From Candidatus Iainarchaeum sp. (lineage in GTDB: Archaea > Iainarchaeota > Iainarchaeia > Iainarchaeales > DTGL01): a stretch of DNA of 35,069 nucleotides. The notes below the pieces were generated by a model. That model made no database searches, was not told the DNA's origin, and was given only the letters and a program-made list of their open reading frames with translations. Location of the stretch: positions 1 through 35,069 of the forward strand of contig JAPLVS010000012.1 of NCBI GenBank assembly GCA_026396995.1, written 5' to 3'. Both the position numbers and the translations under genes were made by a program. Shown in pieces: positions 6,169 through 27,008 of the stretch (position 1 is the stretch's first letter; every line of letters starts with the position of its first letter).

Positions 6169-7254
6169 TTGAAGATAATGGATTTGGCGGTCAGGATTTA
6201 CGGCGAGAAATCCTACAAGCGCTATCTGGTGATTCCGGCAGCGGTTGTCCTCATATGCCTTTTCCTGGCTTTCGTGTTTCCGGGAATAGAGCAGGGCATT
6301 GACCTCAAGGGCGGCACGCTTGTGGTTGTCGGCTCAAAAACGCAGGTCGACGCCTCTGCTATCGAAAGCGCGGTAAGGTCGCAGTTTCAGCTTACAGACC
6401 TGAAAGTCATTCCTTTCCAGGGCGGAGTGCAGGTCCAGTACGGCGCGAACCGCGCCCTTGAATCTGCAAAAACCTTATTGGAAAGCGCCAAATCATCGGT
6501 TGCAGGCAACGAAGCCCAGGCAATGGCTTCCTGCCAGTCCGCAATCGGCTCCCTGAAGGCATTCCTTGAACCTGAAAAAACCTCTTTTGACAGCGCTTCC
6601 TCATGCATTGAGTTTGCTTCGGAATTTTATGATTCCGCTGCTGCAAAATTCGACAGCCAATTGCAGGCGCTCTTGGTTTCAAAAATAGGGCAGGAAAACA
6701 TAAAGGAAGGCGGTTTCACAAGAACCGAGATTTCGCCTGCGCTCGGGCAGATGTTCTGGTCTACGGCCCAGCTTATTTTCCTGATGGCGATAATCCTGAT
6801 AATCATTGTTGTGTTTGTTAGTTTCAGGGCGTTTGTGCCGAGCGCGCTGGTAATCACCTGCATGGTATTCGACATGCTTGCCGGCCTCGCGGGAATGGCG
6901 ATTTTCCACATAAGCTTTTCGCTTGCATCGATTTCCTCGCTTTTGATGCTGATAGGTTATTCGATTGACACCGACATAATGCTTACCGCGAGGCTCACAA
7001 AGCGCAAGTTCAGGAACATGACAGACAATGCCGCGGACTGCTTCATCACAGGGCTCACCATGACCGGCACGGCATTGGGCGCCCTGATTGTCATGCTTGT
7101 GTGTTCGTGGTTCTGGAACATCGATACAATGTTCAGCATTTCCGCGGTTTTGTTCTGCGGCCTTATCGGCGACATCATTTTCACGTGGTTTATGAATGCA
7201 CCGCTGCTGATGTGGCACCTGGAAAGAATTGCGAAGAAGAAGGCAGGAAAGTGA
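6169..7254 (+). CDS. secF: Protein-export membrane protein SecF
   Basis: Subunit of the SecDF complex, an RND-type membrane protein that assists Sec-dependent export after SecYEG. The protein has 361 residues. TM1 lies at about 20-40, followed by the signature GIDLKGGT, a roughly 145-residue outward-facing domain and five further membrane segments. The TM4 signature GYSIDTDIMLT corresponds to the GYS-D motif of SecF. The external domain carries an Ala/Ser-rich helical stretch (about 95-165) that looks longer than in bacterial SecF. The start is taken as TTG at 6169 because AAGGTG lies five bases upstream; an ATG at 6178 is the alternative. Order is secF then secD, with a 4-base gap. Confidence 0.92.
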   Translation: MKIMDLAVRIYGEKSYKRYLVIPAAVVLICLFLAFVFPGIEQGIDLKGGTLVVVGSKTQVDASAIESAVRSQFQLTDLKVIPFQGGVQVQYGANRALESAKTLLESAKSSVAGNEAQAMASCQSAIGSLKAFLEPEKTSFDSASSCIEFASEFYDSAAAKFDSQLQALLVSKIGQENIKEGGFTRTEISPALGQMFWSTAQLIFLMAIILIIIVVFVSFRAFVPSALVITCMVFDMLAGLAGMAIFHISFSLASISSLLMLIGYSIDTDIMLTARLTKRKFRNMTDNAADCFITGLTMTGTALGALIVMLVCSWFWNIDTMFSISAVLFCGLIGDIIFTWFMNAPLLMWHLERIAKKKAGK

Positions 7255-7258
7255 TTGG

Positions 7259-8881
7259 ATGGCTAACCTTTTGAAAAGCTGGCGCATCTGGGTCCTCTTT
7301 GCAGGCATATTGCTGGCTGCAGGCCTTATCGCGTTCAAGGGAATAGATTTCGGCATAGATTTCCAGGGCGGCACGCTTTTCCAGGTCCATTTGTCTGAAG
7401 ACGTGAACGACATGGAGCCTGTAATACAGGTAATAGAGAGCAGGCTCAACTGGAGCGGCCTGAAAGACATAAGGGTTTACGGCGCCCAGAAACAGTTTGT
7501 TTTTGTCATAGTGCCCGAAACAAAAGAGGATGACATCCTGAGGATAGAATCGCTTATCAAAAAGCAGGGCAATTTTGAGGTCGTAATCGACGGCAACGTG
7601 ATGTTCACAGGCGATGGGATAATCAACGTGGACCAGGGCGGCGGAGTGCTCCAGTTTTCGCAGGCAAGCAAGGAGGCCTATGAGTGGCGGCTTCCCTTCA
7701 TGCTCAAAATGGATGCCGCAGAAAGGTTCCGCGACTTATCCTTCCACAAGTGCAGCCTTGTAAGCTTTGAAAAAGCAGAATATGACTGCGCCCTCACGTA
7801 TTTCTATATGGACAGGCCGAAAAAATCCGTGCTTGTGCTTTCACAGGGGCGCTTTGACGAGGACAAAAGCATTTTCCTGAACGGCGCCCAAAAAATACCG
7901 CAGAACACCGGCATCCAGGACATTATCCTGAACAGCGGGACAAAGTATTTTGCGGTCTCAGACAACGCTTTTTCCGCAGAGCAAATTTCCAGCCTTAAAA
8001 AAGAGTTCGCAGCCGGAAACAAAACAGCAATAGTGCAGGCGGATTTGCCTGAAGAGCTCAAGAAAGAGATAGCCTCGCTCGGTTTCACTGTAAGGGAAGT
8101 GGCTGCATTGAATGCGGAAACGCCCTGGCTTTACACTGCCACAGGCCTGAAATCAATTGTAAGACTGAACCCGGAACTCACAGGGAACAAGCCTTATGTG
8201 GAAAGGCCTGAAGATTCAAAGGCAGTCCAGGACCTTATAATCACAGGCGCTGAATCAGACCCTGTCCTTTCAAAAGCCCTGGAAATGGCGAAAGCGGAAA
8301 GGAATGAAACAAAAATTTTATTGAATTCCGGCTCGCTGCCTGTCTCGGTTGAAAGCATAAGCCATTTCTGGACTTCACCCACGCAGGGAAGGGAATTTTT
8401 GGTTGACGCGGCAATCATGGGCTTCCTGGCGCTAATCGCTGTTTCACTGATAATCTTTTTCAGGTACAAGCAGGTAAAACTCTCAATGGCAATCATTTTC
8501 ACAGCAATAGTCGAAGCGTTCTGCACGACCGCCTTCACTTCAGCGCTCGGCCAGAGCATCGACATTGCTGCCATTGCCGGGGTAATTGCCGCAATCGGCA
8601 CAGGCGTCAACGACCAGATAATAATCACCGATGAGCTCCTCAAGGGCGGCACAGAGGAAGAGCAGACCTCGGTTGCAAGGAGAATCAAGCGCGCCTTTTT
8701 CATGGTCATTGCTGCAGCCGCCACAATGCTTGCGACAATGGTGCCACTCATAATCTTCGGCGGGGCAATGGTAAAGCTCGTCGGGTTTGCAATAGCGGTC
8801 GTAATCGGCGTGCTTGTAGGCACCATGATAACAAGGCCAGCCTACGGCGAAATAGCCAGATACCTGATGGGCGAATACTGA
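7259..8881 (+). CDS. secD: Protein-export membrane protein SecD
   Basis: Partner of SecF in the Sec accessory complex. The protein has 540 residues. TM1 lies near the N-terminus, followed by GIDFQGGT, a large external domain of about 330 residues, then five closely spaced membrane helices. The TM4 signature AIGTGVNDQIIITDE is close to the consensus SecD motif with its conserved Asp. The ATG at 7259 follows the SecF stop by 4 bases and has AGGAAAGTGA upstream, so I preferred it to an in-frame TTG at 7229 that would overlap secF. This local SecDF fits the many exported proteins encoded in the next 20 kb. Confidence 0.93.
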   Translation: MANLLKSWRIWVLFAGILLAAGLIAFKGIDFGIDFQGGTLFQVHLSEDVNDMEPVIQVIESRLNWSGLKDIRVYGAQKQFVFVIVPETKEDDILRIESLIKKQGNFEVVIDGNVMFTGDGIINVDQGGGVLQFSQASKEAYEWRLPFMLKMDAAERFRDLSFHKCSLVSFEKAEYDCALTYFYMDRPKKSVLVLSQGRFDEDKSIFLNGAQKIPQNTGIQDIILNSGTKYFAVSDNAFSAEQISSLKKEFAAGNKTAIVQADLPEELKKEIASLGFTVREVAALNAETPWLYTATGLKSIVRLNPELTGNKPYVERPEDSKAVQDLIITGAESDPVLSKALEMAKAERNETKILLNSGSLPVSVESISHFWTSPTQGREFLVDAAIMGFLALIAVSLIIFFRYKQVKLSMAIIFTAIVEAFCTTAFTSALGQSIDIAAIAGVIAAIGTGVNDQIIITDELLKGGTEEEQTSVARRIKRAFFMVIAAAATMLATMVPLIIFGGAMVKLVGFAIAVVIGVLVGTMITRPAYGEIARYLMGEY

Positions 8882-8937
8882 GCCCAGCAAAAGCCGAAAA
8901 CCTTATTCTTGCAGATGGCCTGATGGGCGAATACTGA
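8863..8937 (+). repeat. 19-base direct repeat of the secD 3' end
   Basis: The last 19 bases of secD including its stop (8863-8881) recur exactly at 8919-8937, 56 bases downstream in non-coding DNA; an AGAT just before each copy extends the likeness. The second copy encodes the same Leu-Met-Gly-Glu-Tyr-stop but has no open frame leading into it. It looks like a small tail duplication in the convergent secD/archaeosortase spacer (8882-8962), which otherwise holds nothing recognisable. Confidence 0.8.
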
Positions 8938-8962
8938 TTGTGCCAATCAAACAGGAAACCGC

Positions 8963-9442
8963 TCAAAGCAGCTCCGAGAACTCTTTTATCTTGGCCAGCC
9001 TTTTTGTAAGGTAATACCACAGCAGGATGATGAAGCCAGACATCACAAACCAGGAAATAGTGTGCAGGGTTTCGGCTGTATTGCCGCCGAAAGCGATTCC
9101 GGCCAGGAGCACAAAATAAACCCGGCCGAGGTTTATGAAAAACAATGCCGCCGCCCCAAGCATAAAAATCCGGATTTTCTGTTCCAATGGCGGCTTCCTG
9201 AGTGAAAAAACAATCGCTGCAAGGATTGAGGCCGAGACAAGCCCTGTGCAGTAATTTGTTATTGTGAAATTAGAATCCCCTGCCGCCAGTGTGCTGCCGT
9301 TCCTTTCAATTGAAAGCGCCCAAGACTCTATTCCTGCAATCCATTCGTTCAGGGGCTGGATTTCCGCAAACCAGAGAATGCAGTACAGCACGCTGAAAAT
9401 CACGAAAAATTTTGCCAGAAACAAAGCGCTTTTCCTGTCCAT
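8963..9442 (-). CDS. Archaeosortase/exosortase-family transpeptidase
   Basis: Polytopic membrane protein of 159 residues that matches the exosortase/archaeosortase family. These enzymes recognise C-terminal tripartite tails (short motif, TM helix, basic end) of secreted proteins and, in haloarchaea, direct C-terminal cleavage and lipid attachment. The expected Cys-Arg-His triad is visible: Cys65 in NYCTGLVS, Arg107 in NLGRVYF and His127 in ETLHTISW, spread over about four to five TM helices. It is short for the family, with only the core. The ATG at 9442 has GGGGGAA upstream; an ATG at 9463 overlapping the carS stop would add seven residues. It follows carS 14 bases downstream, which suits lipid anchoring. 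The specific subfamily cannot be assigned. Confidence 0.8.
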   Translation of the reverse strand: MDRKSALFLAKFFVIFSVLYCILWFAEIQPLNEWIAGIESWALSIERNGSTLAAGDSNFTITNYCTGLVSASILAAIVFSLRKPPLEQKIRIFMLGAAALFFINLGRVYFVLLAGIAFGGNTAETLHTISWFVMSGFIILLWYYLTKRLAKIKEFSELL

Positions 9443-9456
9443 CCGATTCCCCCGGC

Positions 9457-9981
9457 CTACCATGGCACGCTTTTTATTTTGCACTTGAAGGCCGCATAAT
9501 TGGCAAGTCTGTGCATTGCAAGCGTCAAAACCACGATAATCACGGCTTCCTCGATTGAAGGAATCCTCATCCATGCTGTAAACGCAAGGCCGCCGGCAAT
9601 AAAGTCAAGCTGGTCAAGGAGCAATACAGGCCGGCCCTTCTCCATGCCGAAACGCCTCTTCACAAAAGAGGCGGCAATGTCGCCTGAGAGCGCTCCGGCG
9701 CAAAGCAGTGCGCCGAACAAAAGGAAGTTTTCATGCACGAGCAGGGTTTGCTGCCTGAAAAAAAAATCCAGCATTAAAACTGACGCCATGCCAACTGCAA
9801 AGCCGGCAAAGGTCCCCTCGATTGATTTGCCTTTTCCGAAAACAGGCTGCCCGAAAAGCTTTTTGCCGAAATCAAGGGGGTGCTTTCCCCCGAAAAGGAG
9901 CGCACTCGCATTGGTTATGTATAAAGGAACAAGGTATAATGCCACTATTATGGCCGTCTCCAGCAGTTCCACCAATGCCAC
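9457..9981 (-). CDS. carS: CDP-archaeol synthase (CarS, DUF46 family)
   Basis: CTP-dependent enzyme that turns 2,3-di-O-geranylgeranylglyceryl phosphate into CDP-archaeol, the precursor for all archaeal phospholipid head groups. The 174-residue protein has about five membrane helices and the family's conserved cytosolic motifs: FGKGKSIEGT near residue 48, GDIAASFVKRR near 100 and LLDQLDFIAGG near 120. The first codon is GTG at 9981. No ribosome-binding site is obvious, but TATA-like DNA at 10003-10012 lies at the right distance for a leaderless transcript. It heads a two-gene operon with the archaeosortase-like gene and is divergent from sppA. Confidence 0.92.
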   Translation of the reverse strand: MALVELLETAIIVALYLVPLYITNASALLFGGKHPLDFGKKLFGQPVFGKGKSIEGTFAGFAVGMASVLMLDFFFRQQTLLVHENFLLFGALLCAGALSGDIAASFVKRRFGMEKGRPVLLLDQLDFIAGGLAFTAWMRIPSIEEAVIIVVLTLAMHRLANYAAFKCKIKSVPW

Positions 9982-10002
9982 CGTTCAATTAAAAATTGTT
10001 TT

Positions 10003-10034
10003 TATTTTATATGGTGTTATTCTATTTTAAATAT
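10003..10034. promoter_or_regulatory. Divergent carS/sppA promoter pair
   Basis: Two TATA-like elements point in opposite directions. TATTTTATAT at 10003-10012 read on the minus strand sits about 26 bases before the carS GTG. TTTTAAATAT at 10025-10034 sits 20-35 bases before the sppA start codons. Both spacings predict transcripts that begin at or next to the start codon, which is common in archaea. Confidence 0.5.
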
Positions 10035-10060
10035 GTTGAATCCGTTGGTCTGTGAAATCC

Positions 10061-10963
10061 ATGAAAGCGAGCACTGTTTTGGTTGTGGTTGCTGCGTGCA
10101 TCCTGCTCCTGCTAGGCCTTGCCGTGGTCCTTTCTTTGCTTTTTGCAGGTTTCGGCACTGACATGGCACTTTTTTCAGGCGGGCAGGCTGCCCTGATTGA
10201 GCTCAAAGGCGATATTTCGAATGATTCAGGGCTTCTTTCCGCGAACTCTACTGCCGAAGAGACAGCCGAACTCATAAGCAAAGCCGACTCCGACCCTTCG
10301 ATTTCCGGCATTCTTCTTGAAATAAATTCCGGCGGCGGCTCTGTTGTCGCTTCAAAGGAAATTGTAAAAGCGCTCAGGGAAGCAAAAAAGCCGAAGGTCG
10401 CATTGATCAGGGATATCGGGGCAAGCGGCGCATACTATGCAGCCTCTGCATGCGACTTCATTATCGCCGACCCTGATTCCCTCACAGGCTCGCTTGGCGT
10501 TATTTCCATAAGGCTCAACCTTGCGGATTTGAGGGATAAAATCGGCATAGGCGCGGATTCCTTCAGCAAGGGCGAAAACAAGGGGATGGGCGACCCGTTC
10601 TCTGAACTAAGCGGGGAAGAGCGCGCAATAATGCAGTCGATTGTCGACCAGGCCTGGCAGGGCTTCAGGGATGATGTCCTTGAATTCAGGGGAACCAAAC
10701 TGAACAGTTCGAAAATGGATGAAATCTTTGACGGCAGGGTTATGAGCGGAAAGCAGGCTCTCTCCTACGGCCTCATTGATGCGACAGGCACCAAAGAAGA
10801 TGCAGTCAAAAAGCTCGGCGAACTCACAGGCATAGAAAACCCTTCCCTTAAAAAATTCAATTCTGAAAAATCGCTCCTTTCAATGCTGGGCCAGATGGGA
10901 TACTCGTTCGGCACAGGATTCAAGCAGAGCCTTTCAAGCGGGGAAATAACACTTCAATCCTGA
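10061..10963 (+). CDS. sppA: Signal peptide peptidase SppA-type membrane serine protease
   Basis: Membrane-anchored peptidase of family S49, which degrades signal peptides left in the membrane after export. The N-terminal membrane helix covers about residues 6-30 of 300. The protease fold follows, with the nucleophile Ser in GASGAYYA (Ser122 from this start). Lysines in the segment SKGENKGMG, about 45-50 residues later, lie where the Ser/Lys dyad base is expected; which Lys is catalytic is not certain. The GGGS segment near 91 is also typical. The single-domain length is that of archaeal and Bacillus SppA. I used the ATG at 10061, with GTGA upstream; a GTG at 10052 would add three residues. 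Confidence 0.9.
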   Translation: MKASTVLVVVAACILLLLGLAVVLSLLFAGFGTDMALFSGGQAALIELKGDISNDSGLLSANSTAEETAELISKADSDPSISGILLEINSGGGSVVASKEIVKALREAKKPKVALIRDIGASGAYYAASACDFIIADPDSLTGSLGVISIRLNLADLRDKIGIGADSFSKGENKGMGDPFSELSGEERAIMQSIVDQAWQGFRDDVLEFRGTKLNSSKMDEIFDGRVMSGKQALSYGLIDATGTKEDAVKKLGELTGIENPSLKKFNSEKSLLSMLGQMGYSFGTGFKQSLSSGEITLQS

Positions 10964-10983: not shown

Positions 10984-12009
10984 TTATGCCTGCCTTATCG
11001 TGAACTCGTTTGAATGGGCGGTCATGCCTTCATTGCAGGAGGAACTGGCGGAAATATACAAGGACAGCCTGTATGTGCCTGGCTTTGCACCGTATTCTTC
11101 GATGTACTGGCAGGCATTTCCGTCGGCCTTGCCGTTGACTTTGTCGCAGGTTTTCATGTCCCAGTTCCATGAGTATTTCCCGAGTTTTGAGCATCCGGGA
11201 GGCCCGAGTTCCTCGCAGGGCACCGGCCAACCGGTGTTGCAATCAATGTCGCCGCACGTGAGAGCGCAGCCTTTCAACACTCTTGCCCACCTCCCGTTTT
11301 CCAGCATTTCAATCCAGATTTTCGGGTTATTCCCGTCGCTTGAAGACGGGTATCTTGTGGAGTCGTAAAAATATTCCCTGCCATCGGCACTTGCTTCCAC
11401 TTCGGCCCTGATTGTTTCGCCCTGCGCGTATTCCGTCTTGTCGGTTTTGATTTGGGGTTTGGGGCAAGTACAGGAGCACACGCCGTTTTCACAAGCGATT
11501 TCAGGTTCAGTGCAATCGGTTTTAGGGCATTCGCTGTGCTTTCCAATGCACTCGGCATTGGCCTGGCATTTCCTTCCAATAGCATCGCAGCTTTCTTCTA
11601 TGCATTTTCCGTTATCGCAATGAGATAAGCATTGCGAAACTGAATTCTCCGGGCAGTCTGCGTCTGTTTCGCATTCTTTGCCTTCTGAGGGCACCAACAT
11701 GCAGGCATTGTTCTGGCAGGTGCATTCCATTTCAGGCTTCTTGCACTCATACAATGGGCAAAGCCCAGGCATTTTTACCGGCAGGCTAGAATGGAATTCG
11801 AGCATATTCACGTCCTTGTTCACGCAGAACGGCCTGCACATATAGGAGAGGCCCATGCCGCAGTCCTGCGCTGTACTGCAGGTTTTGTCCAGTTTTCCGA
11901 TTTCCTGCTGAACATAATCCGCGTATTGTTCGCAGGTCATCGGTTGGCTGCAGCCGCTCAAAAAGAAAACCAATCCGGCCAACAGAATTATCCGGGCTAT
12001 TTTTTTCAT
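10984..12009 (-). CDS. Cys-rich secreted lipoprotein, last gene of the surface-protein operon
   Basis: Unrecognised 341-residue lipoprotein. Its signal peptide ends in a lipobox (LSGCS, Cys20). Two parts can be seen. The first, about residues 25-185, is Cys-rich, with DCG...C pairs and a CTCQNNACM segment resembling one in the first protein of this operon (CSCKNNTCT). The second, 185-341, is a beta-rich domain that starts at IKTDKTEYAQGE and ends at SNEFTI; the same frame of residues, with GPPGCSKLG and a Trp/Cys core, is found in the lipoprotein encoded just upstream, so they are paralogous domains. The ATG has a strong GGAGGGGAT site and lies 25 bases after the previous stop. It is probably exposed on the cell surface; function is unknown. 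Confidence 0.8.
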   Translation of the reverse strand: MKKIARIILLAGLVFFLSGCSQPMTCEQYADYVQQEIGKLDKTCSTAQDCGMGLSYMCRPFCVNKDVNMLEFHSSLPVKMPGLCPLYECKKPEMECTCQNNACMLVPSEGKECETDADCPENSVSQCLSHCDNGKCIEESCDAIGRKCQANAECIGKHSECPKTDCTEPEIACENGVCSCTCPKPQIKTDKTEYAQGETIRAEVEASADGREYFYDSTRYPSSSDGNNPKIWIEMLENGRWARVLKGCALTCGDIDCNTGWPVPCEELGPPGCSKLGKYSWNWDMKTCDKVNGKADGNACQYIEEYGAKPGTYRLSLYISASSSCNEGMTAHSNEFTIRQA

Positions 12010-12034
12010 TCAATCCCCTCCGCTCTATGCCGAT

Positions 12035-13564
12035 TCAGCTCCCTGTCCGCCATTTTTGCAGGCAGCCGCTGCATGCCGCATTGTAATCCCTCATGAAGGA
12101 AAGGGCGCTTTCGCAGTCGGTTTCCATCAGGCGGCCTTCGGCCAGCACTTTGTAAACCGAGGGCCTGAGGCAGGAGCACGCGTTTGTGCTGTGTTCGCCC
12201 ACAACCGCTGTTTTGAGGATTTCCGGTATGTAAAGGTAAAGGTTGTTTACAGGCACCATTGCCTTTTCAACAAGCCGCGAATCATAATAATAGGCGTCCT
12301 CCCAGTTGTGCATGCACCTGCTGGCCTTGCCAACGCATTCTGGGTCTGCCATTATCACTTCCGCATCCTTTTTTTCCTTTTCGCAGGATGCAATGATGTC
12401 CGCAGGCGCCTTTATTGTGAATTCGTTGGATTCGATCGTTTGCGAGGTTCCCTGGCAATGGCTGTCAGTAAAATATAAAAGCGAAAACACATAGGTTCCT
12501 GCGCCTGATTTGAGGTCCATATTGCACACAGGCACTGCGCCCTTTTTCGCGACAGTTTTCCACTTGCAGTACGGAGTCCTTGAAATGCATAAGCCCTGGT
12601 CCCATGCCGAAAACAGGCCGGATTCGATTTTTTTGCAGGGTGGGCCTACTAGCTGAACCACATCCAAGAAGTCTTCGCAGGGCAGGCTTTCACCGCAATC
12701 GTGCTCCGAGTGGCAGTCCCCCCAGGCATATACCCAGCTTTCCCCGAATTTTTTGAGGAGTGTTGCTCCGAGCAAATTGTAGAATTCCTTTTCAGCCGAT
12801 GCGCTCAGCTTTACGGTTTCTCCTTCGGCATATTCGAGTTTGTCTGTTTGAATCGAGAGCGGCACCCTAATCGTTATCTCTTTTTCCGCAAACTTTAATT
12901 CCGCAGGTGTTTCGGTCGGTTCTTTCTCGTTTATCTGCAATGCATACTCGAAGCGGATTTTGTATTTTCCGGAAGGCGCCTGCACCAGCACTGCGCAGTC
13001 CCTTTCCGCAATCTTCTCCGAAACGATTCTCTCCCCGATGCGCTTTATCTCCTTGCACTTGAAGGTTTTTGACTGCAATACAAGCGATTGGTTCCAAGCA
13101 AATTCCATTTTGCCTTCAATTGCCGCCCATCGCGGCAGTTCCTGTTCGAGAAAAATTTGCGGAGGGCATTCTTTTATCACCGTGAAATTCACGTCCTTGC
13201 ACTCAGGCAGTCCGATTTCAGTGCCGACAAACGCGAGCTCGCCTACCGTCATGTCCTTCCATTCACCCTGTTCCAATTTCTGCACCGACCAATTCGGGTT
13301 TACTGAAGGGTCGGTGGAATAAACCTTCCCGCTGTATTCGAGCCAGGCCTTGATTTCTTCGCCTGCCCAGTATTCTTCCTTGTCGGTTTTGACCGCGATT
13401 TGCTCTTGCGGGACAGGGGTTGCCGAAGGCGCTGGCGTAGGCGTTGGAGTTATGGCTGGCGTCGGTGTAGGCGTGCCGCCCCCTGCCGGCTGCGTGCAGC
13501 CGCTGAAAGCCGTTATTGTAATCAGCCCTGCCAGCAAAATAACAGCAAAATAAAATTTTTTCAT
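12035..13564 (-). CDS. Secreted lipoprotein with Thr/Pro linker and two EYxxGE-type beta domains
   Basis: Unrecognised 509-residue lipoprotein. The lipobox FSGCTQP (Cys22) is followed by a Gly/Thr/Pro linker to about residue 55. Two beta-sandwich-like domains begin at VKTDKEEYWAGE (about 58) and IQTDKLEYAEGE (about 238); each ends in an FTI/ITI strand. A C-terminal Cys-rich helical region (about 390-509) follows. The second domain is clearly related to the C-terminal domain of the next gene (shared GPPC and SNEFTIK). The TDKxxYxxGE opening resembles Ig/macroglobulin-like domains. The start ATG overlaps the stop of the upstream gene as ATGA, so translation is probably coupled. Function unknown. 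Confidence 0.82.
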   Translation of the reverse strand: MKKFYFAVILLAGLITITAFSGCTQPAGGGTPTPTPAITPTPTPAPSATPVPQEQIAVKTDKEEYWAGEEIKAWLEYSGKVYSTDPSVNPNWSVQKLEQGEWKDMTVGELAFVGTEIGLPECKDVNFTVIKECPPQIFLEQELPRWAAIEGKMEFAWNQSLVLQSKTFKCKEIKRIGERIVSEKIAERDCAVLVQAPSGKYKIRFEYALQINEKEPTETPAELKFAEKEITIRVPLSIQTDKLEYAEGETVKLSASAEKEFYNLLGATLLKKFGESWVYAWGDCHSEHDCGESLPCEDFLDVVQLVGPPCKKIESGLFSAWDQGLCISRTPYCKWKTVAKKGAVPVCNMDLKSGAGTYVFSLLYFTDSHCQGTSQTIESNEFTIKAPADIIASCEKEKKDAEVIMADPECVGKASRCMHNWEDAYYYDSRLVEKAMVPVNNLYLYIPEILKTAVVGEHSTNACSCLRPSVYKVLAEGRLMETDCESALSFMRDYNAACSGCLQKWRTGS

Positions 13565-16191
13565 TTCAGTTTCCCATGCCTTCCTTGAGCGCTTTTTTTA
13601 TTCCCGCTTTTCTTCTGCGCTATTGCCAGCACTGCAATCGCTATCAGTGCCACCAGCCCTGGGTGGATTTCCGGCGTGAACAATGCCGGTGTTTCAGTTC
13701 CGACCGCAATGTTTGTTGTTTTCGGGCAGTTCCCGCATGCCTCGCTCGTAATGGCTGCCCTGACAAGGTAAATGCCTGAATCAGGGAATATTTTTGTTTT
13801 TTTGGCCGGCGTCTGGCCGCAAGGCATGTTGTCCGGCAACAGCACCGGGGCGCCGTCCTTGTCAAGGTATTCGATTTTCACGTTCGCTATGCCCCTGTTG
13901 CAGGCAATCGTTATTTCGGCGGCTTCGCTTTTGTTTTTCGGGTTGGTTGCGGTGAAAGCAGAAATTGCCGCGAGTTCTTTTGCATTCAGTGTTTTTTCAG
14001 CTGAAACAGGGTCGTTGTATGGGTCTTTCACTGTAAGCCTTACGGTGACTGTTCCAGGCATCGCATAAACATGCGTCACTTCCTTCAGCTGGATGTCGAC
14101 CGCAATGCCGTCTGCAGTGTTGAAGTCCCACCAGTATTGCAGGGTGTCGCCTTCTTTGTCGGTCGAAGTGGATTTGAATCCGACAGTGAGCGGGACGAAG
14201 CCTTCCAAAGGGTCAGCTGTAAAGGACACTTTCGGCGCCTTGTTGCATTTGTTGCTAATGCATTTTCCGGCAGTGCAGGTTCCGCAGTTGAGTGTTGTGC
14301 CGCAGCTACCTTCGGTTACAGTGCCACAGTCGAATCCGAGCTGTGCGCATGTTTTCGGGGCGCAGCACGTGCCGCTGATGCATACTTCTGAGCCGGTGCA
14401 GTTGCTGTTGCAGTTAATTGTTCCTCCGCAGCCGTCCGAAATGGAGCCGCATTGCCCTGGAAAGTCAGCGCATGTTTTTGGAGTGCAGCAATCGTGGCTG
14501 ATGCAGACTGCTGTTCCAGTGCAGCCCCCGCTGTTCCCGCATGAAATTGTAGTATTGCATCCTGTTTCTGTTCCTGTTCCGCATTCCCAGCCCATTTCAG
14601 TGCAGGTTTTTGGAGTGCAGCATTTGTTGCTTATGCAGGTTCCGGCAGTGCAGGTTCCGCAGTTGATGCTTGTGCCGCAGTTTGTTTCTGTGCCTGTCCC
14701 GCAGTCCCACCCCATTTGCGTGCATGTCTTCGGCAGGCATTCGCATTTGTGGGTGGAGTTATTGCATGTTTTTCCGGCGGGGCAGGCAGGGCAGGTGAGC
14801 GAGGTGCCGCATTTGTTTTCTGTTCCGCTTCCGCATTCCCAGCCCATGTCACCGCATGTTTTCGGCGTGCAGATGCACTGGTGGCCTGTGCACTCGGAAT
14901 AGCCTGTGCAATTTGGGCAGGAAAGATAAGTGTTGCAGTTTGTTTCTGTGCCTGAACCACACTGCCACCCCATTCCGGGGCAGGTTTTCGGCACGCAGAC
15001 AGGATTGCACTTGCGGGTTGCAGTATCGCATGTTTGCCCTGAAGCGCAGTTCCCGCAGGAAATTGCGGTGTTGCAGTTTGTTTCTGTTCCTGTTCCGCAG
15101 CTCCACCCCATTTGCGAGCATGTTTTCGGGCTGCACTGGCACTGGTGGTTCGAGCAGGTATAGCCTGACGGGCATGTTCCGCATGAGAGTGTTCCTCCGC
15201 ACCCGTTGTCTCCAGAGCCGCAGCCCCATCCGTTGCTTGAACAAGTCGAGGGGGTGCAGTTGCTTATGCACTGGTGGTTCGAGCAAGAGTATCCTGATGT
15301 GCACGATCCGCAGTTAAGTGTGTTACCACAGGAGTCTGTTCCTGATCCGCAGCTCCACCCCATTCCAGAACATGTTGATGGGGTGCAGTTGCTTATGCAC
15401 TGGTGATTTGTGCAGGTATAGCCTGACGGGCATGTTCCGCATGAGAGTGTTCCTCCGCATCCGTTGTCCCCTGTGCCGCAATCCCAGTTGTTCCCAGAGC
15501 AGGTTGAGGCTGTGCAGCTTGGAACGCAGGAATGGTTTGTGCATGTATAGCCCGAAGAGCAGGACCCGCATGAGATATAACTGCTGCAGTTTGTTTCAGT
15601 TCCGGAACCGCAGCTCCAGCCCATGTTTGCGCAAGTGTACGGGGCGCAGGCAACGCACTGGTGATTCGAGCATGTCTGCCCCGAAGGGCAGGTCCCACAG
15701 GAAATAGTTTTATTGCAGTTTGTTTCTGTTCCTGTTCCGCAGCTCCAGCCCATTTCAGAACAGGTTTTTTTGACGCATGTGCAGCTGGTGCAGACTTTTT
15801 TGACGTGCACGGTTTTTGTGATGGAGGCGGTCAGGCCGGCCGAGTCTTTTACCGTGAGTGTTATCTGGACATCAACTTCGAGTGTTCCGCTTGACGGGAC
15901 ATCATAACACCAAAAGCTGTTTACAACAGGCGAACCAGTGACTTTCGGGCTCCACCAGCTCGTATAGTGGTGGCAGGAACCAGGAACCGATTGGTCTAAA
16001 ATCACCCAAGTAAAGGCATCCGTGACATTGGTTCTTCCATTCGGGAAAGTGCTTGAACTCGCGTCAAGCGTGAAAGAGCCGTTGTCTGTGCCGCTGTAAG
16101 TGAAATTTGCTGTCGGGGCGCCAGCCGCCAGCACCGTCGAGAACAGCAGTATTGCAAAAAGCATTGTCGTTAACCAAAGCGTTTTTTTCAT
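13561..16191 (-). CDS. Surface protein with twelve Cys-rich repeats, PKD domain and sortase-like C-terminal tail
   Basis: Secreted protein of 876 residues, not assignable to a named function. In order: a signal peptide (to about 22); a beta domain (about 23-125); twelve tandem repeats of about 40-45 residues (about 130-640) of pattern C-PKTC--MGW-CG-GTETNC---ISCG-C--G--C--H-C; a PKD-like domain (about 645-735, WWDFNT and HVYAMPG); another beta domain; and a C-terminal helix (HPGLVALIAIAVLAIA) followed by a Lys/Arg-rich end. The repeats have a regular Cys pattern that implies many disulphides; similar repeats occur in secreted proteins of myxobacteria. The tail looks like an archaeosortase signal. 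The ATG at 16191 overlaps the upstream stop (ATGA), and its own stop overlaps the next gene. Confidence 0.87.
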   Translation of the reverse strand: MKKTLWLTTMLFAILLFSTVLAAGAPTANFTYSGTDNGSFTLDASSSTFPNGRTNVTDAFTWVILDQSVPGSCHHYTSWWSPKVTGSPVVNSFWCYDVPSSGTLEVDVQITLTVKDSAGLTASITKTVHVKKVCTSCTCVKKTCSEMGWSCGTGTETNCNKTISCGTCPSGQTCSNHQCVACAPYTCANMGWSCGSGTETNCSSYISCGSCSSGYTCTNHSCVPSCTASTCSGNNWDCGTGDNGCGGTLSCGTCPSGYTCTNHQCISNCTPSTCSGMGWSCGSGTDSCGNTLNCGSCTSGYSCSNHQCISNCTPSTCSSNGWGCGSGDNGCGGTLSCGTCPSGYTCSNHQCQCSPKTCSQMGWSCGTGTETNCNTAISCGNCASGQTCDTATRKCNPVCVPKTCPGMGWQCGSGTETNCNTYLSCPNCTGYSECTGHQCICTPKTCGDMGWECGSGTENKCGTSLTCPACPAGKTCNNSTHKCECLPKTCTQMGWDCGTGTETNCGTSINCGTCTAGTCISNKCCTPKTCTEMGWECGTGTETGCNTTISCGNSGGCTGTAVCISHDCCTPKTCADFPGQCGSISDGCGGTINCNSNCTGSEVCISGTCCAPKTCAQLGFDCGTVTEGSCGTTLNCGTCTAGKCISNKCNKAPKVSFTADPLEGFVPLTVGFKSTSTDKEGDTLQYWWDFNTADGIAVDIQLKEVTHVYAMPGTVTVRLTVKDPYNDPVSAEKTLNAKELAAISAFTATNPKNKSEAAEITIACNRGIANVKIEYLDKDGAPVLLPDNMPCGQTPAKKTKIFPDSGIYLVRAAITSEACGNCPKTTNIAVGTETPALFTPEIHPGLVALIAIAVLAIAQKKSGNKKSAQGRHGKLK
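15154..15459 (-). repeat. Two exact 48-base copies inside the Cys-rich repeat array
   Basis: Bases 15154-15201 and 15412-15459 are identical over 48 bases and lie 258 bases apart. That is 86 codons, or two repeat units, and they encode the same part of repeats three and five. The other units have diverged at the DNA level. This fits a recent duplication of a two-unit block, or gene conversion, in an array expanding and contracting in frame. Confidence 0.8.
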
Positions 16192-17891
16192 CCGTAACAC
16201 TCCGCTACAATTTTATTATAGTATTTTGCCGCCGGCGAAAGGTTTTCCGAGCGGTTGTAGTAAATGGCAAGGCGGTTGCATTGGCGGTAAAAGTCAAGCG
16301 TGAAGCGGCCGTCTGTTCCAGCCAAATCCTGCAGCGCTTTTTCCGTGCAGTTGTTTTCGTATCCTAAAAGGTCGCCGCAGTATTCGGAGTAGCCGTCAGC
16401 AATCGTTCCAGAATTTTCAATCCAGCATTTTTCCATTTCCGCCCTTATGTCTTCGCATGTTATTTCATTTCTTGCGATTGTAAGGCTGCATTCCTTTGAC
16501 CAGAGGTTTTGGTCGTCAGGGCTTACCTGCCAGTAGTATTCGCCGTCCCCGAGCGGTTCGCCAGGCCTGAATTGCCCGCTCATTGTTTCCTCGGCTTCGA
16601 TTGCAATAAAGTCAGGCGTCCCGCGCCTGCTTACCCTTATTATATGCTTTTCCGGGCTTGCAGGCGTCCATGAAAATGAAACCTGGCCTTCAGTTGTTTC
16701 AAGGCCGCAGGCAGGCGATTCAGGCTGTGCCGCCTTCTTTTCCTCTGTGCAAGTGTTGTTTTTGCAACTGCATCCTGTTTCAGGCTTTGGCATCATTACC
16801 TGCGGGCAAATAGTATCAGGCAGGCATTTCAAGCCTGATTGTGCGGCATTGATGCACTCCCATTGCGCTCCGGCTGTTTCAGGGCAGCAGTTTGTGCTCA
16901 CCCATCCGCAGTCAGCGTTTTCAGTGCATCCTTTTTCAATTGTTTTTTTCTCTTCGGCTGTTGCAGGCAAATCGAACAAAACCCATAATGCCCTAAGTGT
17001 TTTCTTCGGTTCAGGGCTGAATTCCAGTGAAATCCTTTTGTCGATTTCTTCGGCCGGCAGCCTGTAGGAGAGCCTTGCGAATTTCCCGTAGTTTTTCGGG
17101 AAAAAGAAGCTTTCCTGCCAGAGCGCGCCGAATGATTCGGATTCCTTTTCAGTGAATCCTGCGGCCATCATCTGCTGCTTCAGGTCCAGGAATTCCGCAT
17201 TCTCCTTCAGCGCCAGCTCTTTTTCCTCGCCTGCTTTCAGCTCTCCGATCGAGCCTGTGAGGGCGCTGAAGGAAGTTGGCGCCATGGCTTTGCTGTTTTC
17301 CTTGCTCACGGCGACCGCCAAATCGTAAACCGCATACCCTGCATTGTTTTTCACTGTTGCTTTTCCTGTCGCGGTGTTGTATTTGGCTGAAATTTTGTTT
17401 TCAAAAGGCATTTCGCCTTCATAAAACAAAAACCTTGCCTCTGTCCCTTCGAACTGCAGGCAGGCGGAATCCACATCGTTCAGAACCGGTATTATTGATT
17501 CGAGCGGCACAGGCTCAAAGCCCTTTGTAAGTGGGGCGTTTTCTTCCGCTTTCAGGCAGTTTTGGAGCACCTTCACTTTTTTCCATTCGGCCGAATCTTC
17601 GGTCATTGCGGTTGAAGGGTAGGTCATTGTAGGCGCGCCTGCTATAAAGTTCACCCGCAAATCGAATTCGTTCAGGTCTTTTGAGTGAATGTATATTACC
17701 GGCTGTTTTACAAGCATTGCCTGTTCAGGCCTTGAAGTCAGCAGGAACTGCCCTGATTCGCTGCAGCCTGCCATGACGCCCCATTCGTGCACTTCGAATT
17801 CCGCTTTCATTTCAGCCGGATTTTCGGTGCAGCCGCCCAAGAACGCAAGCAGGGCTAAGAGCAAAACAAAAATGATTGTCGCTTTCTTCAT
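16188..17891 (-). CDS. Secreted lipoprotein, first gene of the surface-protein operon
   Basis: Unrecognised 567-residue lipoprotein with a lipobox LGGCTEN (Cys21). An N-terminal domain (about 33-330) opens with FEVHEWGVM and has PVIYIHSKD near residue 65, resembling the HEWG segment of some secreted bacterial proteins of unknown role. A Cys-rich segment near 330-400 (ADCGWVSTNCCPE, CSCKNNTC) follows and resembles one in the last gene of the operon. A fibronectin-III-like domain (about 405-480) and a short helical, two-Cys-pair end complete it. The ATG has GGTGA upstream and a TATA-like element at 17931-17944, so this is the operon's first gene. The stop overlaps the next start as ATGA. Function unknown. 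Confidence 0.83.
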   Translation of the reverse strand: MKKATIIFVLLLALLAFLGGCTENPAEMKAEFEVHEWGVMAGCSESGQFLLTSRPEQAMLVKQPVIYIHSKDLNEFDLRVNFIAGAPTMTYPSTAMTEDSAEWKKVKVLQNCLKAEENAPLTKGFEPVPLESIIPVLNDVDSACLQFEGTEARFLFYEGEMPFENKISAKYNTATGKATVKNNAGYAVYDLAVAVSKENSKAMAPTSFSALTGSIGELKAGEEKELALKENAEFLDLKQQMMAAGFTEKESESFGALWQESFFFPKNYGKFARLSYRLPAEEIDKRISLEFSPEPKKTLRALWVLFDLPATAEEKKTIEKGCTENADCGWVSTNCCPETAGAQWECINAAQSGLKCLPDTICPQVMMPKPETGCSCKNNTCTEEKKAAQPESPACGLETTEGQVSFSWTPASPEKHIIRVSRRGTPDFIAIEAEETMSGQFRPGEPLGDGEYYWQVSPDDQNLWSKECSLTIARNEITCEDIRAEMEKCWIENSGTIADGYSEYCGDLLGYENNCTEKALQDLAGTDGRFTLDFYRQCNRLAIYYNRSENLSPAAKYYNKIVAECYG

Positions 17892-17930: not shown

Positions 17931-17944
17931 GCTTTAAATATTTC
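17931..17944 (-). promoter_or_regulatory. TATA-like element of the surface-protein operon
   Basis: GCTTTAAATATTTC, read on the minus strand as GAAATATTTAAAGC, is a strong archaeal TATA match about 45 bases before the ATG at 17891. It predicts a leader of about 20 bases that still includes the GGTGA ribosome-binding site. It is the only clear promoter candidate for the four genes that end at 10984. Confidence 0.55.
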
Positions 17945-17961: not shown

Positions 17962-18639
17962 CTAGCGGAGCAGGCTTTTCAGGAGGATTGCGATTGTTGT
18001 GCCTGACGCCGAACCCAAAAAATTCACCTGTGCGTTGTTCAGCATTTTTTTCAGTTCGAATGCCGCCCCGAACACTGAATCCGCTATCGAGCCAAAAAAT
18101 CCGCCGAGTATTATCACCAATGCAATGGCTGGTTCCTGGAATTTGAGGAAATGGAATATTCCGATCATTGCCGCGCCGAACAGCGCGGCATAGCAGCCCA
18201 AAGGCGTTATTCCGCCGTCAGTGCCGTGCTCCACTTCCTTTAAGGTGGTGACAAGCCTCGGCTTTTTTTTGGAAAGCATGCCTATTTCAGAGGAAAGCGT
18301 GTCCGCAAGCGCGGCCGATACCGCGGCATAATACCCGAAAGGCGAGGCAAAGTACAGGGCGAGTATGGCGGCGGCGCTGTTGCCGATGATGTTTCCGGTG
18401 GTCCTTTCCTCGTGCTGGTTTTTGGACTGTGACCTGCCGAATTTGGTTGCAATTTCAGCGGCGACAAAAAAGAACACAATCAAAAAAAAGCATTCGAGGC
18501 CGCCCATCAGGTAGATTGTTATGCCGACAATGGCCGCTATGAGTATGCCGTCCCTGTCAAGGAGCCTTTTCCTGAAAGAGACAATGGAAAAAATAGAAAG
18601 CGCTAATAGGAGGACTAGGGCGTTGGCCATCTGGTCCAT
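17962..18639 (-). CDS. DUF92 family integral membrane protein
   Basis: Membrane protein of 225 residues with about six TM helices. It has the conserved core of the DUF92 family: RTTGNIIGNS near residue 80, ADTLSSEIG near 112 and the cytosolic TLKEVEHGTDGGITPLG near 131-148. The plant relative VTE6 is a phytyl-phosphate kinase, and archaeal members are suspected to act on prenyl phosphates; that is family knowledge, not shown here. The ATG at 18639 lies 2 bases after the eS1 stop, so it is the last gene of the uS15 operon. The ribosome-binding site is weak, and an ATG four codons in is possible. Confidence 0.88.
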   Translation of the reverse strand: MDQMANALVLLLALSIFSIVSFRKRLLDRDGILIAAIVGITIYLMGGLECFFLIVFFFVAAEIATKFGRSQSKNQHEERTTGNIIGNSAAAILALYFASPFGYYAAVSAALADTLSSEIGMLSKKKPRLVTTLKEVEHGTDGGITPLGCYAALFGAAMIGIFHFLKFQEPAIALVIILGGFFGSIADSVFGAAFELKKMLNNAQVNFLGSASGTTIAILLKSLLR

Positions 18640-18641
18640 TC

Positions 18642-19220
18642 TTATTTACCTTCCAGGATTCTGGTTTTGGATATTTCTATTTTCCTGAGCCTGTCGATGT
18701 CCTTTGTCCTTTTTATGATTTTTGCGGTTGTAATCCCGAAAATCAGTTCCTGGACAAGCTGGTCGAAGGTTTTTTTCTGGATGTCCGAAGCCACGGTTTC
18801 GATTATGCCTTTCCTTATCTCCTTTTCCTTCCTTTTTTCCAGCTTCCTGCTTGAAATCGCAATCACTTTCACCCTGGCCTTCTTGCCGTCCTTTGTGGTG
18901 TCGGTTGTCACTGTTTCAATCTTTGTAATCCTTCTCCTTATCATTCTCCTTATGTACGACTGGTTTACCTCGAAGCCGACCGCTTCAGTGAACGCCTTGG
19001 ATTCCTTGACTTCTGTTACCTTGAACTGCACCGCAATGTGCCTTAATTTCCTCTGGCCTGTGAGCTCGTCCACGGTGACCCAGACTGTCCTGCCGACAAC
19101 TGCCTTCCCTTTTTCTGCAGGCGTTTCGCCTATCACCCTGTTTTCGAATATTTTGGGCGCTACCAGTTCGAACCATTTTTTCTTTTTCCATTTGTCGACT
19201 GTTTTCTGCACTGTAGCCAT
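18642..19220 (-). CDS. rps3ae: Ribosomal protein eS1 (S3Ae)
   Basis: Small-subunit protein eS1, found near the mRNA exit of archaeal and eukaryotic ribosomes. The 192-residue protein matches the family through WFELVAPKIFENRVIGET at the N-terminus, the FKVTEV strand, the IRRMIRRRITKIET basic segment and the C-terminal RTKDIDRLRKIEI region. Length is normal. The ATG at 19220 begins one base after the stop of the 41-codon ORF; an in-frame GTG at 19229 would overlap that ORF by eight bases. It belongs to the operon uS15, small ORF, eS1, DUF92. Confidence 0.96.
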   Translation of the reverse strand: MATVQKTVDKWKKKKWFELVAPKIFENRVIGETPAEKGKAVVGRTVWVTVDELTGQRKLRHIAVQFKVTEVKESKAFTEAVGFEVNQSYIRRMIRRRITKIETVTTDTTKDGKKARVKVIAISSRKLEKRKEKEIRKGIIETVASDIQKKTFDQLVQELIFGITTAKIIKRTKDIDRLRKIEISKTRILEGK

Positions 19221-19221
19221 T

Positions 19222-19347
19222 TCACTCACATTCCTTCAATGCGTTTTCAATCATCCTGTCGCCTGCAGCGAGAACAAGGCCTGAGGGAGCGTCGCCGCAT
19301 TCCTCGGTTTTTTTCCCGCAATATTCAAGCGTTATTGAGTATTTCAT
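19222..19347 (-). CDS. 41-residue small ORF between uS15 and eS1
   Basis: Reads from ATG at 19347 to TGA at 19222, giving 41 residues that I do not recognise: an N-terminal MKYSITLEY strand, three Cys (CGKK, ECGD, KECE) and a C-terminal helix. Its ATG directly follows the uS15 stop (TGAATG), and its stop lies one base before the eS1 ATG, so it exactly fills the gap. That packing argues for a real, coupled gene. In many archaea the uS15-eS1 interval holds a RecJ-like gene and/or the KEOPS subunit Pcc1; this product is too short and shows no convincing Pcc1 likeness. It could be a lineage-specific protein or a deletion remnant. Confidence 0.6.
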   Translation of the reverse strand: MKYSITLEYCGKKTEECGDAPSGLVLAAGDRMIENALKECE

Positions 19348-19833
19348 TCATTTCACCAAAAGCTTTGCCTTTTCCTCTGTGAAATTCCATTCCCCGGGCA
19401 GCAACCCTTTTTTCTTGTAGTATTCGACAAGTTTCCTTATCTTTGAAACAGTCATCTGGTAACCCCTTTTTGCCGTCATGTCCTTGGGGTTTGGGCCCAT
19501 GTGCTCCTTTATGGTGACGCTTCTCCTGATAAGGTTCATTAAGTCTTCGGGAATTTCTTCCCTGGTTCCCTGTTCTTTGAGGATGTCAGAAACAGTTTTG
19601 CCTGTAATCGCCCTTACTTCCGGAATGCCGTGCTGGTCCCTCAAAATCATGCCGATTTCGCTCTTCGGCACGCCCTCGTTTGAAAGCTTTTTTATAAGCT
19701 CGATGATTTCTTCGGGCTTCATTTCAACCCAGTCAAAGGCCTTTTTCTTCCGCGAATGCTTTTCGGGCTTTTCGCTCTTCACGGTTTCCGCAACCTCTTT
19801 GATTTCCGCGGTTTCTTCGTTTTCTTCAGCCAT
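19348..19833 (-). CDS. rps15: Ribosomal protein uS15
   Basis: Primary 16S rRNA-binding protein of the small subunit. From the ATG at 19833 it has 161 residues. The archaeal uS15 core is clear: KPEEIIELIKKL, GVPKSEIGMILRDQHGIP, a helix with LMNLIRRSVTIKEH, and KDMTAKRGYQMTVSKIRKLVEYYK near the end. Instead of the usual basic N-terminus with MHxRRKG it has about 30 acidic residues (many Glu) before the SRKKKAFDW segment. I chose the ATG because AAGGT lies about eight bases upstream; a TTG at 19851 would add six residues. It heads the operon that includes eS1. Confidence 0.95.
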   Translation of the reverse strand: MAEENEETAEIKEVAETVKSEKPEKHSRKKKAFDWVEMKPEEIIELIKKLSNEGVPKSEIGMILRDQHGIPEVRAITGKTVSDILKEQGTREEIPEDLMNLIRRSVTIKEHMGPNPKDMTAKRGYQMTVSKIRKLVEYYKKKGLLPGEWNFTEEKAKLLVK

Positions 19834-19875
19834 TCCAAAAACCTTTTTCAAAAGACTTTTTGATTTTTTTTAGCA

Positions 19876-23237: not shown

Positions 23238-26200
23238 TTACCCCACCTCCGGGAGCGCTGGCAGTTCAGGAATGTCAGGAATGGGCGTGTCGGTGCCTGC
23301 AAGGATGCACTTGTCTTCGGCGTAAACAGCAAGCGCTTTTCCAAGGTGTTCTGCTGCAAGCGTTGTCTCAAGCGCGTTCACCCACTGTGTTCCTTCGGTG
23401 TCGTAAAAGAAAGCGCCTTTCAGTTTGCAGTCGCCCATTTTCCCTATCTGTTTTTCGAACATGTCCTTGAGCACAGGCACGAAATTCCATCCTTTTTGCA
23501 ACGGCTTCAGTTCAAACAATGAGGTCGGCGCTACGAGCTCTGCCTTTATGGTGCAGGCTTCTTTTGGATTATAGAGCCAATAGGCCTTTCCTGCTTCGGC
23601 CTTTTTGGCTTTCTCGAACTTGCCTTCCTTGTATTCGAAGAGCCTGAAATCGCCAAGGCTGCAGTTGCTCATTTCAATGGTTTTTATCTCGCCTGGAATC
23701 GAGAACAAATTCCAGCCTTTTGCGATTGAGATTTTGAATTCAAGGCCTGTGCCTTTCTCGGTCACAATGAATTCGGCGTAATCCGACCAGATTGCCTTTG
23801 CTGTGATTTCAAAGTCGCCGACTGTGACCGACTGGCCTTCCTGCAATTTGTATATCTGGAACGGCATAGGAATCTCTATCGGCGCAACCGGCTCAGCCTT
23901 CTGGGGCTGGCTTGCGGATGTGGCACCGCTTATGGCTGCAACCAGTGGAACCGGCATAGTTGCAGATGCTTGGCCTCCCGAAGTCGTACTGCCTGAATTC
24001 GATTCGATGATTGAGCTTTTCGAGTTTTCCGAAATCTGCTGGCTGCTTACTGTTGTCCCCATGCTTCCCTTTTCAAAGAGGTAATTGCTTACGCCGATTT
24101 TGACTGTCGGCGTCGAAGTGCAGGTGCTGCTTGTTTCGGCGCAGGCAATGTCTTCTTCGCCTATGCCGAGCATGTCTATCAGCATGTTCGCTTCAAGCAC
24201 CCTTGCCTTCATGTTTTCCTTCAGTTTGAATTGTTCGCCTACCTGTACATTGATTGTGTCGTCGCTGTACGGCAGTTCTTCAGCCAAGAACTTGGCGCTG
24301 CCCCCGGCAAGGCCGAGCAGTGAAAGCTTTATCTCGTAAATCTTGAGGCTTTCGCCGAGCTTCAGCACATAGGTTTTCTTGTAGAACACTGCGCCGCTTG
24401 AGCCGCCGCTTATAGCCGGCATTTCCTGTGTGCTGCTTTGCACTCCGGCGGTTGCCATATTTTCCTTTATGGTGTCGGTTTTCTGCTTTGCCTCTTCAGT
24501 CAAAGGCAAAGGCACGACGCCCCAGCCTTTCTTCCAGACAGAAACGATTGCATAACCGTCTTCAGAGGCTGCAACCGATTGCTGTAAAGTGACAAAGATG
24601 TCCCTGTCTATTATCAATGCGGTCTGACCGTCTGCCAATTTGAATTCTTCGCCGAGCGCAACCTTGATGTAGTCGATGTCGTCCTCGATTTTGTTCACCA
24701 CAAAGACCGCGTTGTTCCCGTTAAGGCCTGCGAAGTAAATCTTGTATTCGCCTATGTTCTGGGTTTCGCCTTCACTGATTGCAATCGGCGTGACCTTGTA
24801 TTCCCCGCCTATGCAGTTTGTTTCCCCGATGCAGTTGGCTCTGACCGGAATGCTCACAAGCAGTTTTGCCCTTGCCCTCATGTCGCACCATATCTGTATG
24901 CATTTCCCGCTTTCCTTGCATTTTTCCTGCACCGGGCAGTCTGCGGCCATATCGATGCCTTCGAGCATTATTTTCATCAGTTCTTTCTTTTCAGGCGAAA
25001 GGATTTTTGCGCTGTCACCATTGCCAATTTCGAATTTGTCGCCGAGGAATGCGGTGATTGCATTGCCTGTTTCCGCCTTTGTTATTGTCAGGTTTGCGTA
25101 AGGCTTTCCCCCGATGCATTGTGTCATGTTTTCTGTTCCGTCTGTCGTGGTCGTGCACTGTGGGAAAAGGACGCTGTTCAAGGTTATGGTGTGATCGAGG
25201 ATGGTTGCGCTTTCCCCTGCTTTTATTTTCACCCACTGGTCAGAACCGTATGTTGCGCCCCTGACTGAAAGCTTTACGGTATAAGATTCGACGTCCATGC
25301 CTTCAAGTTTTGCTGTGAGGCCTGTTTCGCTGACTATTGCTTTTTCCCCGAGGGAAAGATTGAATGGTTCGCCCAATTTAACCCATTTCTCGGTGTCATA
25401 ATTGCTTTCTTCAAGCAATTGCCTCCATTCTTCGATCATTTTGAGCGCGTAAGTTATTGCTTCCGGCTCTTTTGCCAGAAGGCACCAAGCAACACTGTTT
25501 TCCTTTGGTGAAATGGCGTACATTTTTTGTATCGGCATGTCCGCGCCGCACTGCATGGTGCCATTTTCGAGCGTGATGCAGCAGCTTGTATCGCTCAATT
25601 GGAGCTCGAAAAAGCCTTTTGCGTCAAGGTTTTTCAGGAATTCTTCCGCCTTTTCGCTGCTTGTGTAGCCTTTCTTTTTTGACCTCTGCCCGTTCAGGTA
25701 AGTGGTTTCCAAAATCAGCCCGCTTTTGTACAATTCAAGGGTTTTTTCCGAGTATGCCAGCCCGCCTGCCGAAGCATAATAGAAAACAGGCATTTCGTCA
25801 GCCGGCTCTTCAGACCCGCCCTGGCAGTCGTAACCGACAATGCATTTTTTTCCGTTTATTTCCCCGTATTTGGGTTCTATTGTGCCGTTCGGGCAGAATT
25901 CCGGGGATGGCGTTGAAATGAGCGGGCACGAGCTGTCTGTTTCCTCCTCGCATTTCCCACTCACGTATTCTACAACCAAATCGGTTTTTGTGGATGCAGC
26001 GCATGCAGCGCAGGCGTTGCTGAAAGTCTTTTTGTATTTTGTGTAACCGCCGTCAGTATTGAACTGTTCTATTGTCGCGCAGACAGGCGCGTATTCCTGG
26101 GTGCAAATTGTGGGCTGGGCTTTTGCAGAGCAGGCCCCGACAGAATAAACCGTTGTCGTGCTGGCGCCCCCTCCCATTGTTGTTGTCGTCTCTGTCGAAA

Positions 26201-26840: not shown

Positions 26841-27008
26841 CAAACCACCTGCCAATTTTCTAAACAGAATGCAATCCATTACGCATTCATTGTATTTATT
26901 CTTAACGCATTCCAGGCTAAAAAGCCTTTTGGAAACGTTCGGCTTTCTGCGAATCCGGCGAAAGGAGCATTTTTATTTTTTTTCTGCCCTTTTCTTGCGG
27001 TGATGTTT

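Follow-up and report, generated by a model that had tools for sequence, protein, structure and literature searches.

The four-gene operon A–D on the minus strand of the analysed window (the whole stretch of DNA, 35,069 nucleotides) is, judging from gene order, a lineage-specific insertion in a block of genes conserved across its order (Candidatus Diapherotrites). The operon probably encodes a secreted, surface-anchored, cysteine-rich set of proteins that are transcribed together, and the explanation favoured here, with somewhat better than even confidence, is that A, C and D are lipoproteins and B is an archaeosortase substrate held on an archaeol lipid, together forming a lineage-specific surface coat or stalk. 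The sequence supplies the gene content, the types of signal, the insertion, an enzyme with an intact triad and its linkage to CarS, and from these we infer cleavage, lipid attachment, assembly and any role in adhesion. The genes and the site preceding them are the following.

16188-17891, minus strand: gene A, 567-aa predicted lipoprotein, lipobox LGGC
13561-16191, minus strand: gene B, secreted protein of 876 aa (104 Cys) in which 12 Cys-rich repeats are combined with a PKD domain and a sorting signal at the C-terminus
12035-13564, minus strand: gene C, predicted lipoprotein of 509 aa containing Ig-like domains, lipobox FSGC
10984-12009, minus strand: gene D, predicted lipoprotein of 341 aa, rich in Cys and with a single Ig-like domain, lipobox LSGC
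17944-17931, minus strand: candidate BRE/TATA-like promoter before A, GGAAATATTTAAAG, about 40 nt ahead of the A start, judged by eye

Four secreted minus-strand genes, encoding three lipoproteins and an anchored protein with 12 repeats, had been reported in the first-pass annotation, and the open reading frames, lipoboxes and repeats were all confirmed; in A, C and D the signal peptide ends at the cysteine of a lipobox, from which their lipidation is predicted. The ATGA overlaps said to join the first three genes were found at the A/B junction, where the list of reading frames starts B with GTG at 16200 and the ATG at 16191 overlaps the TGA of A, and at the B/C junction (ATGA at 13564-13561), while the gap between C and D is 25 nt, and thus the coupling is limited to A, B and C. 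The single promoter proposed at 17931-17944 looks by eye like a good BRE/TATA-like site. It may not be the sole source of transcription, since DUF92 lies upstream and ends 70 bp before A, which leaves room for read-through from the S15-S3Ae-DUF92 genes. A sigma-70 promoter scan was set aside as uninformative, the host being an archaeon. Tight coupling had further been taken to indicate fixed stoichiometry; however, among 374 close co-directional pairs in 903 kb of this genome (67% of its 1.35 Mb assembly), 57 (15%) show a 4-nt overlap of the ATGA type, so two consecutive overlaps are unremarkable and the coupling was rejected as proof of stoichiometry.

The site of the insertion lies between convergent genes for SppA and DUF92, with the following neighbours.

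6169-7254, plus strand: SecF, best NCBIfam match SecF, below the length-specific cut-off
7229-8881, plus strand: SecD, best NCBIfam match SecD, below the length-specific cut-off
10052-10963, plus strand: SppA signal peptide peptidase (TIGR00706 over cut-off), left flank of the insertion
17962-18639, minus strand: DUF92 membrane protein (PF01940), right flank of the insertion, part of the conserved block
18642-19229, upstream of DUF92: S3Ae (PF01015)
19348-19851, upstream of DUF92: S15, by its match to S15

The search covered 75 genomes of the order, including the present one, which alone represents its genus. Across the order it comprises the DNA polymerase II small subunit, a GTPase, SecF-SecD, archaeosortase-CarS, SppA, DUF92, S3Ae and S15, with a rearrangement in genome G004 and with SppA absent from G004 and G046. 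The stops of SppA and DUF92 are here 6,998 bp apart, which is the extent of the four genes, while in the 26 readable relatives they overlap or are separated by 0–52 bp in 22 and by 263–750 bp in 4. In three genomes of one family (f3: G009, G010 and G012, loci L253, L242 and L239) the distance is 450–750 bp, which may reflect a further small insertion at this position. Taken together along positions 6169-10963 of the window and across the order, SecDF, archaeosortase, CarS and SppA have the appearance of an export and anchoring block. A further secreted protein encoded in the window (23238-26879, minus strand) has 1213 aa, 50 of them Cys, and gave no Pfam match.

Such a clean insertion, missing in all relatives, could also be recently acquired cargo without joint function. 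This is quite unlikely, as all four frames are intact, the G+C of the insert (0.49–0.545) resembles that of its surroundings, the borders carry no inverted repeats and its modules are also found at other places in this genome. Accordingly, base composition gives no sign of foreign origin, and the idea of mobile-element borders was rejected.

At the level of protein architecture, searches of A–D with Pfam and NCBIfam gave nothing above cut-off except PKD in B. Protein A consists of an N-terminal domain, here called HEWG (residues ~30–310), a Cys module (~315–390) and an uncharacterised C-terminal part, and its structure model is mostly beta (pLDDT 79.5). The HEWG domain (window 16932-17819, minus strand) is an unnamed secreted domain of archaea and bacteria without a Pfam match over cut-off; the 11 best Foldseek matches to its model were AP/COPI mu-homology domains with probabilities of 0.97–1.00 and TM of at most 0.42, and since TM lies below 0.5 a mu-homology function was not adopted and no function is assigned to the domain from the model. 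A sequence search of the PDB returned PKD-like matches only for B and nothing convincing for A. Protein B begins with an ordinary signal peptide, and at its C-terminal end lysines come after a hydrophobic segment. Its 12 repeats are listed here.

14227-15777, minus strand: 12 repeats of ~43 aa with ~8 Cys each (B residues 139–655), repeated in the DNA as well

The composition of the repeats suggests a disulfide-rich stalk; VKOR as a source of disulfides was not found in the family of this genome. The repeats and the C-terminal module of B are found in separate proteins, several per genome, and the module forms a multi-copy family with several paralogues per genome. Protein C has a match to Big_14 below cut-off and is paralogous to D (E 4e-6).

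The first-pass annotation suggested a cell-surface complex of fixed stoichiometry, and the comparison of relatives does not support a conserved complex of this kind. Neither the other genera of the family nor the remainder of the order have the four genes at the site, so that the gene order that a conserved multi-gene adhesion complex would keep is not retained, in a comparison where this genome alone represents its genus. The N-terminal domain of A is also present in a sister genus and in genome G057, beside different neighbours, which are not B–D. Members of the A family were detected in Diapherotrites, Altiarchaeales, Thermoplasmata, Ignavibacteria, Zixiibacteriota, Planctomycetota, Verrucomicrobiales and Sandaracinaceae, and these wider homologues are without B–D at the loci inspected; a single-sequence search of genome contigs with A gave no match, while the alignment-based search did find homologues. 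No orthologue of D was found among the 74 other genomes of the order, and the sole match of C in the order corresponds to its C-terminal part (genome G024). In Altiarchaeales (L260 5763-9044; L258 5888-9044) a HEWG lipoprotein follows an N-terminally anchored protein of 475–512 aa and a short Cys-rich protein, with 25–32 Cys.

These data bear on the possibility that A–D make up a single complex of fixed stoichiometry for adhesion or host contact, as their common strand, two ATGA overlaps and one candidate promoter would allow, and as might be suggested by the HEWG protein of G057 (L011 757-2787, minus strand), which joins in one chain the HEWG domain and an Ig-like domain like that of C and D (E ~0.003). 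Such a complex is nevertheless improbable, because the set is conserved in no relative, the overlaps are common in the genome, A is found without B–D in many phyla, and C and D are paralogues. Given this paralogy and the multi-copy C-terminal module of B, the operon gives the impression of having been put together from surface modules that recur.

The earlier account described the secreted Cys-rich set correctly and overlooked two features, an archaeosortase located 1.5 kb beyond D and the sorting signal of B.

8963-9442, minus strand: archaeosortase of the exosortase/archaeosortase family, 159 aa when read from ATG 9442
9457-9981, minus strand: CarS, CDP-archaeol synthase (NF003114 over cut-off, PF01864), directly upstream of the archaeosortase
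13603-13695, minus strand: sorting signal of B, TPEIHP followed by a hydrophobic stretch and lysines, 53 bits with profile A1, in which B itself is included

The product of 8963-9442 is, by its sequence, a member of the exosortase/archaeosortase family with the triad intact: it scores 47.1 bits with TIGR04178 (cut-off 23) and 34.6 with PF09721 (cut-off 25.7), and it has the conserved Cys, Arg and His/Arg of the family in the membrane core, where all 49 homologous stretches compared keep C65, R107 and H127, a few genomes being perhaps counted twice. Among the named subfamilies (ArtA, C, D, E, pacearchaeo- and heimdallarchaeosortase) it falls well below every cut-off. PF09721 matches in 64 of the 75 genomes. 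Both profiles match in 57 genomes, and in 50 of these CarS immediately precedes the archaeosortase; tblastn added G025, G062 and G074, which gives at least 53 of the 75 genomes of the order. Long archaeosortase frames of 436–500 aa stand beside the usual short type in G017 and G018 (L068, L069).

The CDP-archaeol made by CarS is the activated precursor of archaeol-based lipid, and CarS supplies ordinary membrane lipids as well. A single CDP-alcohol phosphotransferase was found in this genome, nearest to archaetidylinositol phosphate synthase, below cut-off, and not PssA. Since CarS and the archaeosortase belong to a longer block with ribosomal and DNA polymerase genes, their adjacency may be partly historical. 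In the literature open to the search, mostly outside subscription journals, no description of a CarS–archaeosortase link was found, and Diapherotrites and archaeosortases were joined only in a list of phyla.

Profile A1, built from 14 C-terminal ends including that of B, matches 4 proteins in this genome and, at E<=0.1, proteins in 49 of the 75 genomes, the weakest of these matches being likely due to chance. Across the order the carriers of the signal are 33 distinct proteins in 18 ectodomain clusters, whose recognisable ectodomains include beta-helix, Calx-beta and PKD/Big_9, and at the loci read nearly all matches end a few residues from the stop. Placed at the very C-terminal end of proteins whose ectodomains are unrelated, the signal corresponds to tripartite C-terminal sorting signals of the general kind, and none of the NCBIfam C-terminal signal models, including PEF-CTERM, PGF-CTERM and PEP-CTERM, scored over cut-off, giving single weak sub-threshold matches. 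At E<=1e-3 the signal is present in 25 of the 53 genomes with the CarS–enzyme pair vs 4 of the 22 without it (Fisher p 0.02), a modest association in a test that ignores shared ancestry and incomplete genomes, and 28 of the 53 pair-bearing genomes are without a clear signal at this threshold.

Alternatively, an uncut C-terminal transmembrane helix may be what anchors B, with the PE motif reflecting common descent of the C-terminal module rather than sorting; most signal carriers of one family (f1) do share the preceding 200-aa module, and this genome does have simple C-terminal anchors. We consider this unlikely, given that 17 other ectodomain groups carry the signal as well, at the extreme C-terminus, and that the archaeosortase is present in nearly all genomes of the order.

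According to the favoured explanation, by which B is an archaeosortase substrate, A, C and D would be exported, cut at the lipobox and anchored by a lipid on the N-terminal cysteine, while B would be exported by Sec and its TPEIHP signal recognised and cleaved by the nearby archaeosortase. The new C-terminus of B would then be joined to an archaeol-based lipid, the precursor CDP-archaeol coming from CarS, and B would stand on the cell as a stalk of 12 disulfide-rich modules, PKD and a membrane-proximal domain, surrounded by the three lipoproteins. Such an assembly might act as a structural layer or in contact. That B is probably cut and joined to archaeol lipid is proposed by analogy with ArtA of Haloferax, whose processing requires PssA and PssD (PMC7157517).

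It is conceivable, though with a little less than even confidence, that an undescribed anchoring pathway operates order-wide in Diapherotrites, in which an archaeosortase coupled to CarS, sharing a gene block with SecDF and SppA and having a PExxP signal of its own, would attach diverse surface proteins to archaeol lipids, the operon being lineage-specific cargo beside the pathway. To our knowledge, the surface anchoring of proteins in minute DPANN archaea is largely unknown. A recognisable C-terminal signal would provide a list of predicted surface proteins for the whole order, and the constant neighbour CarS hints at the lipid used, whereas the four-gene operon alone is a modest lineage-specific addition.

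Among known systems, ArtA/PGF-CTERM of Haloferax volcanii is similar in having a multi-pass enzyme with a catalytic Cys, a tripartite C-terminal signal on surface proteins and a link to archaeal phospholipid synthesis, but here the ArtA model reaches 27 bits against 75, the motif is [TVI]PE[ITLM]xP and not PGF, and the partner is CarS and not PssA/PssD. In Methanosarcina artA adjoins pssA/pssD (PMC7157517), so that an archaeosortase gene is likewise next to lipid-head-group genes, whereas here the neighbour is CarS, one pathway step earlier and conserved across an order. The PEF-CTERM (TIGR03024) and PEP-CTERM signals share with the present one Pro-Glu near the signal start, a hydrophobic stretch and a basic end, although the signal described here reaches no curated model. 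Finally, pacearchaeosortase (NF033505), archaeosortase D (TIGR04175) and heimdallarchaeosortase (NF045528) represent the same superfamily in other archaea, while the enzyme of the window scores with them 26 of 80, 31 of 125 and 21 of 130 bits, respectively.
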